Of a stretch of 39,543 nt of DNA, positions 7,501 to 14,168 are shown piece by piece. A program made the translations under genes and the position numbers. The notes beneath the pieces are model-generated. The model saw only the letters and a program-made list of their open reading frames with translations. It made no database searches and was not told the DNA's origin. The stretch's first letter is position 1. Every line of letters starts with the position of its first letter. The DNA is from a virus: positions 1-39,543 of IMG/VR virus record IMGVR_UViG_3300033145_001218; one strand, written 5' to 3'.

Positions 7501-7519
7501 GTTCTGGAACCCCTTGCGT

Positions 7520-7545
7520 GGTGCGGGCGGTCGGTCGCCCGCACC
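7520..7545 (+). promoter_or_regulatory. 10-bp perfect hairpin after the capsid gene
   Basis: GGTGCGGGCG (7520-7529) and CGCCCGCACC (7536-7545) form a perfect stem with a six-base loop, starting 20 bases after the capsid stop. There is no T-run, so it is not a standard intrinsic terminator. A role in protecting the highly expressed capsid mRNA or reducing read-through is plausible. Confidence 0.6.
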
Positions 7546-7564
7546 CACCCGTCGGAGACTGACC

Positions 7565-8215
7565 ATGTACCTGCTGCGAATGAAGACCGGGGGCACCTGC
7601 CTCATGCGCGACACCGCCCGCCAGGGGACGCCGGCGGCCAAGGGCGATCCAATGCTCGAAGTCCCGCCCTGGGACTATGCGTTGTTCGAGAACCTGCCGG
7701 CTCGCGTCGAGCCGAGCGGCAACGCCGAGATCGAGGTGCACGCCGTTGCCGACCTCGAGGCGGCGCGGAGGTTGCGTGACTCCTTGATTGAGAGCATCCA
7801 CGCTGAGCGAGCGTCGGCCTTGAACTACAAGTCCGAGGTGCAACTCAAGATCGACCGCCTCATGGGGCGCGCGCCACCGCCCGACGAGGACGAGCTCGCG
7901 AAGGCTGAGGCCGAGACGGCCGAGGCCCAGAGAAAGCCGCCGGCGATCCAGGCCCGGATCGACAAGATGCTCGGCCGCGAGCCGGAGACCTCAGCCGAGA
8001 GCGCCGAAGCGAAGGCAGAGGCCGAAGCGAAGGCAGAGGCCGAAGCGAAGGCAGAGGCCGAAGCGAAGGCAGAGGCCGAAGCGAAGGCAGAGGCCGAAGC
8101 GAAGGCAGGGGCCGAAGCGAAGGCAGAGGCCGAAGCGAAGGCAGGGGCCGAAGCGAAGGCAGGGGCCGAAGCGAAGAACAAGAACAGCAAGAGCGGCAAG
8201 GGCCGCCGCCGCTAG
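7565..8215 (+). CDS. Structural-region protein with C-terminal AEAKAE helix repeats
   Basis: The preferred start is ATG 7565 (MYLLRMKTGG), because the GTG start at 7514 lies before the capsid hairpin. The 216-residue product has a small N-terminal domain, a charged helical middle with LIESIHAERASALNYKSEVQ, and then about ten tandem AEAKA(E/G) hexapeptides that should form a long single alpha-helix, ending in a basic tail (KNKNSKSGKGRRR). It lies between the capsid and the head-tail connector genes. The function is unknown; a head-associated or neck protein is likely by position. The repeat length may vary among relatives. Confidence 0.75.
   Translation: MYLLRMKTGGTCLMRDTARQGTPAAKGDPMLEVPPWDYALFENLPARVEPSGNAEIEVHAVADLEAARRLRDSLIESIHAERASALNYKSEVQLKIDRLMGRAPPPDEDELAKAEAETAEAQRKPPAIQARIDKMLGREPETSAESAEAKAEAEAKAEAEAKAEAEAKAEAEAKAEAEAKAGAEAKAEAEAKAGAEAKAGAEAKNKNSKSGKGRRR
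8003..8176 (+). repeat. Tandem 18-bp coding repeat (about 9.7 units)
   Basis: The unit GCCGAAGCGAAGGCAGAG repeats without interruption. Nine full copies and a partial tenth encode AEAKAE or AEAKAG. The only changes are A-to-G substitutions in the last codon (units 6, 8 and 9). The near identity at nucleotide level points to recent expansion by slippage or recombination. It is inside the gene, not a CRISPR array. Confidence 0.92.
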
Positions 8216-9759: not shown

Positions 9760-9999
9760 ATGCCAACGATGCGCCCTCCCCACTACCAAGGCCTGGTCTA
9801 CAACGGCCGGCACATCGCTGACGGCGACACCGTTGACGTTCTGCCCAGAGACGTCGTGGACTTCGAGGCCGCCGATTGGCACCGCGTCGATCCTGTCGGT
9901 GATCAAAAAGAGCCGCAGGACCTCGCTGAGCTCGAGGCGAAGTACGAGGCCTCGATTATCGCCGACGCCAAAACTGACACGGAGGAGCGCCAGCCATGA
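9760..9999 (+). CDS. Small conserved-type protein in the tail module
   Basis: ATG 9760 has GAGGT five bases upstream, giving 79 residues. The core reads as a small beta domain (YNGRHIADGDTVDVLPRDVV, then DWHRVD) followed by an acidic helix (LAELEAKYEAS). It overlaps the tail tube start (ATGA). A comparable tiny gene sits before the tail tube or sheath gene in many Mu-like phages. Function unknown. Confidence 0.6.
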   Translation: MPTMRPPHYQGLVYNGRHIADGDTVDVLPRDVVDFEAADWHRVDPVGDQKEPQDLAELEAKYEASIIADAKTDTEERQP

Positions 10000-11153
10000 C
10001 CAGTCCCGCCACCGACCTCACCCGAAGGATTTGGATCAAGGCCGAAACCTCCTACGACACCTACGTGGCGCTCGCAGCCACCGACGGCGTCGACGCTGAC
10101 CTCCAGCTCGTTCCGGATATCTCTTACACAAAAATCGAGAGTCACGTCGGCACCGCGTCGGTACAAGGGTTTATCCCAGGTGACCAGGACAACAAGTGGA
10201 ACTGCGAGACTCTTATCCGTCCCGGCGCCCTCGGGGTCGCCCCAGATATTGGTGCGCTACTCGCTCACGCCCTGGGCGCTGAGACCATCGTCGGCGGGAC
10301 GTCGGTAGTCTATGAAATCGACGACACCTGTCCGTCGGCCGGGCTCGAATTTGCCGCCCACGCTGGCTCCGACGGGCAGTACTACGCCCGCGGCAACGGC
10401 GGGTGGGCTGAATCGCTCACTATCGAGGCCTCGCAGGGATCGATGCCGAAGATCAAAGCCAGCGGCGGATACGCTACCCACTCGGCGATCAAGGCGGGCG
10501 CGGCGTGCACTGCGGTCGAGGACGCCGGCGAGTCGATCATCGCAGTCGATTCCGATGAGGCAGCCTGTCTGGCGGGCGAACCGATCGTGAAATTCGACAC
10601 CGAGGATAATGGTGGTGACGGGTACCAGGTTACATCTATCGACTACGCGGCCGACACCTTCACTGTATCCCCCGTGCTCGTCGGCCCCACCGAGATTGGT
10701 GACAAAATCTATCCCGTGGTCCCGTCCCACACTCTCACCGGCACGCCGATCGGCATCCAGCACATGGTCACAATCGGCGGTGTCGAGTTCGGAATCCTCA
10801 AGGCAACGATAAGCATGACCTTGAGCATCAAGCCACGCCGGGATGGCAGCAGTGACGTGCCGGTCGGCCTGATCGGACCCGTCATCCGCGAGTTCACTGG
10901 CGAGCTAGAGCTCTACGAACGGGAGGTCAGCACGCCGGTCACCGGCGCCGCGTGGTTCAACGGTATCAAGGCGGTCAACCTGCGGCTCGGCCCGGACACC
11001 CCCGGTGCTCGGTGCAAACCGCAGATGCCGGCATGCCAGCTCAAAGTCGTTAAGGAGAACTGGTCCACAGAGGATGGCCTGCGTGTCACCCTCGCCTTTA
11101 TGGCCAAGCAGAGCGCCGTCGCCGGCGACGAGTTCAGTCTCATCTTTGATTAG
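9996..11153 (+). CDS. Major tail tube protein
   Basis: A 385-residue protein begins MTSPATDLTRRIWIKAETSY, a typical opening for phage tail tube proteins of the siphovirus type. Beta-rich sequence follows, including a duplicated tube-fold pattern and an insertion around residues 190-240. The size is large but within range for tube proteins carrying an extra domain. The next two genes are the frameshifted chaperone and the tape measure, the canonical order. No sheath gene was recognised, which favours a non-contractile tail. Confidence 0.75.
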   Translation: MTSPATDLTRRIWIKAETSYDTYVALAATDGVDADLQLVPDISYTKIESHVGTASVQGFIPGDQDNKWNCETLIRPGALGVAPDIGALLAHALGAETIVGGTSVVYEIDDTCPSAGLEFAAHAGSDGQYYARGNGGWAESLTIEASQGSMPKIKASGGYATHSAIKAGAACTAVEDAGESIIAVDSDEAACLAGEPIVKFDTEDNGGDGYQVTSIDYAADTFTVSPVLVGPTEIGDKIYPVVPSHTLTGTPIGIQHMVTIGGVEFGILKATISMTLSIKPRRDGSSDVPVGLIGPVIREFTGELELYEREVSTPVTGAAWFNGIKAVNLRLGPDTPGARCKPQMPACQLKVVKENWSTEDGLRVTLAFMAKQSAVAGDEFSLIFD

Positions 11154-11165
11154 CAGGAGGCCACC

Positions 11166-11702
11166 GTGGCTCGACGAGTACAAGGACCGCCCCCGGGCCG
11201 CGAGGCCTGGTTCACCCCCGTCGCCTTCGGAAACGCCAAGGCGCTCCCCGAGGACAGGATTCGGGTCAAGCTCCGCTACCCGACCGAGGGCGACCGAAGG
11301 CGCGCATCGAGCGCGGCCATAAGGATGGAGATGGGCACCGCCCAGGGCGCAACCGGCGACGGCCCGGTGGTCGTCAAGGGTGGCTCCGTCGAGCAACAGA
11401 TTGAGCTGATCCTCACCGAACACGTCGTCGAGGTCGAGGGGTACGAGGACGCAGCCGGCCGGCCAATCACGACGGGCGCGCAGCTCTACGAGTACGGAGA
11501 GCGCGACATCGCTGACGAGGTCTACACGGAGCTCAGGGCAGGGCTCGCCCTACAGGAGGTAGAAAAAAAAACCTCCGACGAGTCGCCCGCCTCGCCGCCT
11601 CCGACGCCAGTCCCCTCGGATGGGACTGCGCCGAGTGCCGAAAGTTCGGCACCGACGTCGAGCGAGGACACGACGCAAACCAGCCCCACATCGTCACAGT
11701 AA
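11166..11702 (+). CDS. Tail assembly chaperone, zero-frame product (gpG-like)
   Basis: A 178-residue protein starts at GTG 11166, with AGGAGG 10 bases upstream. The folded part is about residues 1-135. After codon 135 the sequence becomes serine/proline/threonine-rich (SPASPPPTPVPS), exactly where a -1 frame carries a better-looking protein. As in lambda G, the short product and a longer frameshifted product would chaperone the tape measure during tail assembly. The function is inferred from position and the slippery site. Confidence 0.75.
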   Translation: MARRVQGPPPGREAWFTPVAFGNAKALPEDRIRVKLRYPTEGDRRRASSAAIRMEMGTAQGATGDGPVVVKGGSVEQQIELILTEHVVEVEGYEDAAGRPITTGAQLYEYGERDIADEVYTELRAGLALQEVEKKTSDESPASPPPTPVPSDGTAPSAESSAPTSSEDTTQTSPTSSQ

Positions 11703-11953
11703 CATGGAGGGACAAGTGGCACAGATGCCCCAAGGCATGGCTCGACCAAGAGGCTCGCCACGAGGCGGAGCTGTATGCCGACGCTCGGCGGTATCTGGTG
11801 CGGGGCATCATGCCGGAGGCGGGAGGGTGGAACGATCAGGATCCACGATGGGCTGAGGCCGTCGGGATAGTCGCGGAAGAAACCGAGGCAGCGAGAAAGG
11901 CGCAGGACAGTGGGAGCCCAAGCAAGCCTGACCACCACCCTCCGAGGCGATGA
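11166..11953 (+). CDS. Tail assembly chaperone, -1 frameshift product (gpGT-like)
   Basis: Reading the zero frame to codon 11568-11570 and then slipping -1 continues from AAC 11570-11572 to the TGA at 11951-11953, adding 127 codons for a total of about 262 residues. The extension is protein-like: CAECRKFGTDVERGHD with a CxxC pair, VTVTWRDKWHRCPKAWLDQE, then acidic helices. No start codon suits a separate gene. Its end overlaps the tape measure start (11910) by 44 bases. Lambda gpGT follows the same plan. The frameshift is inferred from sequence and not proven. Confidence 0.8.
11554..11571 (+). promoter_or_regulatory. -1 ribosomal frameshift site (A9 run) with upstream SD-like motif
   Basis: Nine A residues occupy 11563-11571. 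In the zero frame this contains A AAA AAA (11564-11570), an ideal slippery heptamer with two tandem AAA codons. AGGAGGT at 11554-11560 lies just upstream and could act as an internal Shine-Dalgarno stimulator, as in dnaX, though it is closer here than in dnaX. No downstream pseudoknot was worked out. Confidence 0.8.
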
Positions 11954-14168
11954 CAAGGTCAGTGCCACCCTCCACTCCGCCGCTGACGCTGCGCTCAAGC
12001 TGGCGAGCGCTGAGGTAGAGGCAGCAAAAAAGGCTGAAGCCGCAAGCGAAGGTTCGACCAAGGCCAAGAAGGCACAGGTCAGCGCATCCAAACAGGTCGC
12101 CCTCGCGATTGCCCAGGAAGCCGCTGCGGGTAACCCGCTCAAGTCCAAGCTGGCCGAGCTCAACGCGGCGCACGCCACCCTCAAGGCGCAGATGACCGCG
12201 CTCGTGAAGGCCGGCAAGCCGATCCCACCTCAGATGGCCGCGGCAGCCGCGGCGGCTGAGAAGGCCTCGGCCGCCATCAAACGGCAGTCGAAGGTACAGA
12301 AGACCGCGGCGACGAGCGGCGTCAACCTGACCGACAGCATCAAGGCTGCCGCGGTGGCCTACGTGAGCCTCGCTGCCGCAGCCAGGGCCGCGACGGCACT
12401 CAAGGATCTGGTCACCGACCACATCGAGGCCGGTGACGCTCTGTCGAAGATGTCGCAGCGCCTCGGCGTCAGCGTCGAGAAGCTGCAGGAGTATCAGTTC
12501 ACCGCCAGCTCCGCCGGCATTGCCAACGAGCAGCTCGCCGATGCTTTCAAGGCTTTGGGGCGCCGGGCCGCAGACGCCGCCGCCGGCAACAAGGAGTTCG
12601 GCAAAGGGTTCGAGATGCTCGGCGTCGACGTCGAGACCGCCAGCGGGCGCCTGAAGACGGTCGAGGAGCTATTACCTGAGATCGCAGACGGTCTCGCGGC
12701 ACAGGCTGACCAAGGCGTACGGGCAAGCGCTTCGATGCGAGTACTCGGCGACTCCGGGGTCAAGCTGCTCCCGATGCTACAGGGCGGCTCCGCTGAGTTG
12801 GAGAGGTACGCTGCCCGGGCGCATGAGGTAGGGGCCGTGATGTCCGACGAGACCGCGGCGGCGGCCGAGACTGCGGCGCAAGCGTTCACCGAGCTCGACG
12901 CGGCGACAGGTGGGCTCAAGACGGCCGTGGCAGCCGAGCTCGTCCCGGCTGTTACCGATCTCGCCAAAGGGCTCACTGAGATTGCCTCGTGGGGTGTGTC
13001 TGCCGACATCGCCATCGGCGGGCTCAAGGGGACCCTCTTGGCGCTCGCTGGTCCGGCCGCTGGAGTGGCAGCCTCGTTCATCAGCATTGCCGGCGCCGTG
13101 ACGGAGCTGTCCGAAGAGGAGAAGTTCCTGCTTGAGCAGGAGAAGCAGGGCGAAGCCGATCGGCTCAAGTGGGAGCGCGAGCAGGACGCCCGCGCCCGCG
13201 CCGAACTCTCGCGCATTGAGGCCAGGAAGAAGGCAAACGAGCAGGCGTCAAAGGAGCTGCTCAAGACCCGTGCCGCTGAGGAGAAAGAGCTCGCCGCCGC
13301 TGCGGCCGCGCGTGAGGCCGAGCAACAGAAGGAGACAGCGGCATCGCTCAAGATGCTGAGGCAGGTCGAGGCCGAAAAGGCAAAGATTGCCGAGAAGGAG
13401 CTCGCGGCGGCAAAGCAACAACAAGACGAGCTCGCCGCGCTCGCCAAGACAGCTAAAGAGGAGTCTATCGCCACGGCCGAGGCCACGGCCGACAAGTGGA
13501 TCACGGTCGGTACCGACATCGGCGCCACATTCGTCACGATGTTCTCCAACATAGCCGAGGGCGAGAAAACCGCCGGCGAGATTGCGGGCGAAGCCATGGC
13601 CAGTCTGCTCGCAATGGCCCTCCAAACAGCATCGGAGTTCATGGCAATCGAGGCGGCCAAGGCCGCCGCCGCAGCCTTTGCTGCCCACGCAGGCATCGGG
13701 CCTTTCATTGGTCTCGCCATTGGAGCCGCCGCCGCTGCCACTGCTGCGGCGGCCGTCATGAGTTTTGCCAACTTTGCCGAAGGCGGCCTGGTCACCGGAG
13801 GTCAACCCGGCCGCGATTCCGTTCCTGCGCTCCTCATGCCTGGCGAGCTCGTAATTCCCACTGACCAGACCGACGGGATCCGTCGATTGCTTGGAATGGC
13901 TGGCAGCGGCGCACCGCTTCGAATGGCCGATGGTGGCGTCGTGATTAACGGCGACGCAGGCAACACTACGTCCGCCGGCGCCACAATCGGAACGGTGAAC
14001 GAGGGCGACATCAACCTGACCATCAGCGCCAGTTTCCCGACGGATGCTGCGGGTTGGGATCAGCTGACCAAGGCTTCCATCATTCCATCGCTCAAGCGCC
14101 TGCAGAAGGCCGGACAGTTCACCATGGTGTCCATTGCCCTTCCACCTACGATGGTGAGGATCATCTAA
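11910..14168 (+). CDS. Tape measure protein
   Basis: This 752-residue protein sets tail length and passes into the host envelope on ejection. It starts at GTG 11910 inside the frameshifted chaperone gene. The sequence is alanine-rich and helical throughout: coiled coils about 20-135, a conserved-type core about 165-300 (ISKMSQRLG-like segment DALSKMSQRLGVSVEKL), another charged coiled coil about 395-530, hydrophobic helices about 560-615, and a C-terminal GGLVTGGQPGRDSVPALLMP motif that is common at tape measure C-termini. At roughly 0.15 nm per residue the tail would be about 110 nm. Confidence 0.9.
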   Translation: MGAQASLTTTLRGDDKVSATLHSAADAALKLASAEVEAAKKAEAASEGSTKAKKAQVSASKQVALAIAQEAAAGNPLKSKLAELNAAHATLKAQMTALVKAGKPIPPQMAAAAAAAEKASAAIKRQSKVQKTAATSGVNLTDSIKAAAVAYVSLAAAARAATALKDLVTDHIEAGDALSKMSQRLGVSVEKLQEYQFTASSAGIANEQLADAFKALGRRAADAAAGNKEFGKGFEMLGVDVETASGRLKTVEELLPEIADGLAAQADQGVRASASMRVLGDSGVKLLPMLQGGSAELERYAARAHEVGAVMSDETAAAAETAAQAFTELDAATGGLKTAVAAELVPAVTDLAKGLTEIASWGVSADIAIGGLKGTLLALAGPAAGVAASFISIAGAVTELSEEEKFLLEQEKQGEADRLKWEREQDARARAELSRIEARKKANEQASKELLKTRAAEEKELAAAAAAREAEQQKETAASLKMLRQVEAEKAKIAEKELAAAKQQQDELAALAKTAKEESIATAEATADKWITVGTDIGATFVTMFSNIAEGEKTAGEIAGEAMASLLAMALQTASEFMAIEAAKAAAAAFAAHAGIGPFIGLAIGAAAAATAAAAVMSFANFAEGGLVTGGQPGRDSVPALLMPGELVIPTDQTDGIRRLLGMAGSGAPLRMADGGVVINGDAGNTTSAGATIGTVNEGDINLTISASFPTDAAGWDQLTKASIIPSLKRLQKAGQFTMVSIALPPTMVRII

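Follow-up and report, generated by a model that had tools for sequence, protein, structure and literature searches.

The locus studied here raises the question of whether the gene preceding a phage tape measure gene specifies one protein or two. In the 39,543-nt stretch that was analysed (the window), positions 11166-11953 very probably encode a tail assembly chaperone pair of the lambda G/GT type through a programmed -1 frameshift; that the shift occurs in this phage, and that its products act in tail assembly, we infer. The zero-frame gene (11166-11702, plus strand, as are its neighbours and the elements within and around it) has a GTG start and encodes 178 aa. Its assignment as a G-like tail assembly chaperone comes from position and architecture, with no family match. 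It sits between a tail tube protein-like gene (9996-11153), for which the match to Pfam Phage_tube_2 is weak and under the curated cut-off (E 1.5e-4), and the tape measure protein gene (11910-14168; PHROG tail length tape measure, 1.8e-31). Pfam, PHROG, PDB and profile searches returned no match for the N-terminal domain of the chaperone, which also matches no relative's chaperone, and an AlphaFold single-sequence model of the chaperone alone was poor. Elsewhere in the window, an ORF at 7514-8215 ends in a long Ala/Glu/Lys repeat (AEAKAEAEAKAE...).

Late in the chaperone gene lies a run of nine A (11563-11571), longer than any other A or T run in the window. The zero frame crosses it as GAA AAA AAA ACC, codons 133-136 of the ORF that starts with GTG at 11166, and the heptamer A_AAA_AAA (11564-11570) is in phase with the gene and ends codon 135; relatives carry equivalent heptamers. 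Stop to stop, the open -1 frame spans 11516-11953, and none of its codons is ATG, GTG or TTG. A -1 slip at 11564-11570 would join the first 135 codons of the chaperone, common to both predicted products, to an extension (T-like domain, 11570-11953) of 127 codons plus stop, giving 262 aa compared with the 178-aa zero-frame product, which alone contains the 43-codon tail. An earlier note on this DNA had described the site in this way, and its reading of the sequence was borne out: the A-run is in the correct frame at codon 135, the extension contains CAEC and WRDKWHRCPKAW and lacks a start codon of its own, the zero frame becomes rich in Ser, Pro and Thr past the site, and the extension overlaps the start of the tape measure gene (GTG at 11910) by 44 nt. 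In-phase heptamers occur four times in the 16 genes checked; a long -1 frame lies behind the one at 11564 only, and behind the others the -1 frame runs for 1, 2 and 51 codons. The openness of the -1 frame nevertheless proves little alone, because in this GC-rich DNA 16.5% of zero-frame positions in neighbouring genes are followed by 127 or more open codons in the -1 frame. With the chance of an open -1 frame this high, the case depends on relatives.

Pfam, PHROG and PDB searches with the chaperone part and the extension gave nothing usable; the extension belongs to no Pfam family and has only a sub-threshold PHROG match. Direct searches of viral contigs with the extension or the tube protein, and scans of genome contigs, found no relative. 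A tblastn search with the extension gave two weak matches (E 0.2), one in Synechococcus phage MinM1 and one in Microcystis phage Mae-JY22. Both immediately precede the tape measure or next tail gene and lie in the -1 frame behind an A_AAA_AAC at the 3' end of the preceding ORF. Alignments of these two led by a search chain to locus L028, from there to L030, L031 and loci up to L043, and searches with these loci led to phages of Rhodobacter, Rhizobium and Gordonia. A match in Klebsiella phage F14 was dropped because it adjoins terminase genes and not a tape measure gene. The extension thus has relatives in about ten other phage lineages (Synechococcus, Microcystis, Rhodobacter, Rhizobium and Gordonia phages and metagenomic ones). 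With the exception of one contig (L038), every relative has an in-phase X_XXY_YYZ heptamer at the junction, and the extension follows just 3' of it, where the gene that precedes the tape measure or next tail gene ends.

The heptamer is A_AAA_AAC in MinM1 and L022, in Mae-JY22 and in L028; A_AAA_AAA followed by TAA in L030/L031; G_GGA_AAA in L033-35/L037/L040; C_CCA_AAC in L041 and L042/43; G_GGA_AAC in Rhizobium phage RHph_I4; A_AAA_AAG in Rhodobacter phages RcTiptonus/RcDurkin; and G_GGA_AAT in Gordonia phage Jumbo, where the depositors annotate a joined, frameshifted tail assembly chaperone and the extension matches PHROG 9001 'tail assembly chaperone' at 1.1e-5. Variation of the heptamer sequence among relatives points to a kept function and not to mere descent. 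In codon shuffles, the probability of an in-phase heptamer in the overlap was 0.001 to 0.11 per lineage, with a product of about 1e-20 over 11 lineages. The earlier note had made conservation of the -1 frame in homologues the test of its claim, and the frame is kept behind a heptamer in distant phages, one contig excepted.

In that contig (IMGVR_UViG_3300048839_000544; L038:2650-3243) the extension lies in the frame of the upstream ORF behind a single TGA, with no slippery heptamer and the junction CCC GAT TGA CTG ATT. Readthrough of the stop codon instead of a frameshift, or a sequence error, is possible there; a further scan returned the same contig only. L028 carries two in-phase heptamers 21 nt apart, TTTTTTG and AAAAAAC, at the end of one chaperone gene (L028:2809-2836). 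Relatives found through the tape measure protein (L004-L019) have other frameshift-like chaperones or none, and never this extension. Among these loci, heptamers at L006:5436-5445, L005:5179, L008:4148 and L015:1280 end the preceding ORF and are followed by different -1 extensions that lack the GxLPEAGGxxDQ family signature.

GC content by codon position is.73/.47/.81 before the slip site and.71/.54/.73 in the extension, which is gene-like, and.54/.79/.74 in the zero-frame tail, which is not; a switch at the slip site is as expected if the -1 frame codes for protein. At -0.02 per codon, the extension has the highest codon log-likelihood of the six frames, though it scores lower than the other window genes (mean 0.35, sd 0.17). 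A profile built from 12 relatives without the window found the window's -1 ORF at E 3.4e-13, the next best of 898 six-frame ORFs scoring 4.1, and a zinc-subgroup profile scored it at E 9e-14. Because the relatives were gathered by search chains begun with the window, the profile E-value is not wholly independent; synteny and the heptamers lay outside the queries. The searches found no close relative of the window itself, and dN/dS values for the -1 frame come from close pairs among the relatives: 0.03 (L030/L031), 0.19 (L033/L037) and 0.39 (MinM1/L022). Purifying selection acts on the -1 frame in the relatives.

The predicted fold of the extension is a helical hairpin whose loop carries the conserved GxLPEAGGxxDQ. 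Its AlphaFold model has a pLDDT of 69.9 and is confident only in the hairpin (about residues 60-115, at about 90), where the signature RGIMPEAGGWNDQ (11801-11839) forms the loop between two predicted helices; the putative zinc part is of low confidence, and a structure search with the model gave no significant fold match. The earlier note had also called the extension zinc-bearing. Four positions, Cys20 (11627), Cys23 (11636), His34 (11669) and Cys53 (11726) of the extension, make up a putative zinc site at 11627-11728 and align with C-x2-C-x9-C ... CP in RcTiptonus, RHph_I4 and Mae-JY22, so that these phages and the window have the pattern C-x2-C-x9/10-[C/H] ... CP in common. A metal ligand would accept the exchange of Cys for His seen at the third position, and from these residues the segment, which in the window and several relatives precedes the hairpin, likely binds zinc. 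The pattern recurs in several relatives but not in all: it is partial in L028, L030 is Cys-rich, the motif is lost in MinM1/L022, and it is absent from L033, L041, L042 and Jumbo. Since MinM1 and the shorter extensions do without it, the Cys/His motif is an optional segment. In the libraries searched the extension family is apparently unnamed. A broader reading, which we offer tentatively as slightly less probable than an even chance, is of an unnamed T-domain family marked by GxLPEAGGxxDQ in phages of very different hosts, with a zinc segment gained and lost, and with tail initiation dependent on zinc in some of these phages.

We examined the sequence on both sides of the slip site for stimulatory signals. 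A Shine-Dalgarno-like AGGAGGT is present at 11554-11560, as the earlier note had pointed out, and its AGGAGG ends 4 nt before the heptamer. Stimulators of -1 frameshifting act at a spacing of 9-14 nt (PMC5009743), and the AGGAGG is not conserved at the slip sites of relatives. With its spacing unfit and conservation lacking, it was rejected as a -1 stimulator and carries no weight in the argument. The A-run forms the loop of an inverted repeat whose arms are AGGAGGT and ACCTCC (11554-11576). Downstream, a candidate multibranch 3' RNA structure with two strong hairpins (11576-11661) is more structured than shuffled sequences, with a z-score of -2.6 for 90 nt and of -1.9 for 100 nt. Downstream RNA is likewise structured at 75-100 nt in most relatives, but the strongest downstream hairpins start about 36 nt from the slip site.

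Tandem slippage of tRNA-Lys at A_AAA_AAA is the simplest reading. Most ribosomes would read the zero frame and make the 178-aa G-like protein, and a minority, with two tRNA-Lys on AAA AAA at 11565-11570, would slip by -1 and continue into the extension to make the 262-aa GT-like protein. If the division of labour is that of lambda, binding of the tape measure protein would fall to the N-terminal part common to both products and recruitment of tail tube subunits to the extension, and both products would then leave the tail. A point against this reading is that in E. coli A_AAA_AAA is less shift-prone than A_AAA_AAG (review PMC5009743).

Other routes to the same protein were weighed against ribosomal slippage. 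RNA polymerase could add an extra A at the run, so that ordinary translation would yield the same fusion, and a run of nine A is long enough to raise suspicion of polymerase slippage. Cases of transcriptional slippage include Thermus dnaX, Shigella spa13 and a considerable number of IS elements (PMC5009743). The sites of most relatives, however, are six A before C or G, or GGGAAAN or CCCAAAC, sites of the kind expected for tandem tRNA slippage and not for a polymerase that slips on long runs. We consider the transcriptional route improbable as the explanation, and a mixture of ribosomal and polymerase slippage may operate in this one phage. It is far less probable that the run length is an artefact of sequencing or assembly and that both parts form one ordinary gene. 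Errors are frequent in such runs, and the window comes from one virus record that has no near relative, but the out-of-frame junction recurs in about ten other lineages, several of whose sites are not long homopolymers and several of which have a zero-frame stop directly behind the heptamer.

To an equally small degree of probability, the extension could be a separate gene that uses a non-standard start codon or termination-reinitiation. This would fit the AGGAGGT just upstream of the site and the annotation of the equivalents in MinM1, Mae-JY22, RcTiptonus and RHph_I4 as CDSs of their own; against it, the window's -1 frame offers none of the three usual start codons, and similarity between the relatives, Cys segment included, begins upstream of most annotated starts. 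Finally, an open frame arising by chance in GC-rich DNA, which the frequency of long -1 frames in neighbouring genes would allow, is refuted by homology (profile E about 3e-13), and the codon-position signature, purifying selection in relatives and the conserved slip site speak against it as well; we give it next to no weight.

With programmed ribosomal frameshifting as the preferred reading, an unannotated stretch becomes a defined protein, and the GxLPEAGGxxDQ signature provides a means of recognising such extensions. Free hypothetical CDSs are annotated at L002:149-403, L003:5965-6207, L045:2438-2809 and L046:2519-2764, in MinM1, Mae-JY22, RHph_I4 and RcTiptonus. Each is probably the frameshift extension of the tail chaperone gene ahead of it, with a misplaced start. 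The frameshift mechanism itself is textbook for tailed phages; what is new is a possible zinc site and a domain family without a name.

The -1 frameshift is described as conserved in long-tailed phages (Xu, Hendrix and Duda 2004, cited in PMC2628397; review PMC5009743). Lambda makes its short and long products in a ratio of about 30:1; the short part is the one that binds the tape measure protein, whereas recruitment of the tail subunit falls to the -1 part (PMC5009743). The window shares with lambda G/GT the overlapping frames between the major tail protein and tape measure genes, and a second frame that lacks a start codon and is entered by slipping -1 late in the first gene; an abundant short product and a rare long one are expected here as well. 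It differs in that neither part has detected similarity to known family models, in its heptamer A_AAA_AAA and in the likely zinc segment of the extension. Gordonia phage Jumbo gp19/gp20, where a frameshift is already annotated, has an LPxAGGxxDQ-type signature in its -1 extension, whereas its site is G_GGA_AAT and its extension, of 90 codons, has no Cys segment. The window also resembles gp42/gp43 of RcTiptonus/RcDurkin, in which an in-phase A_AAA_AAG in the chaperone gene, directly before the tape measure gene, precedes a -1 extension with C-x2-C-x9-C ... RCP and GILPCPGGLDQQP. Their third ligand is Cys where the window has His, and their gp43 is annotated as a free hypothetical protein.
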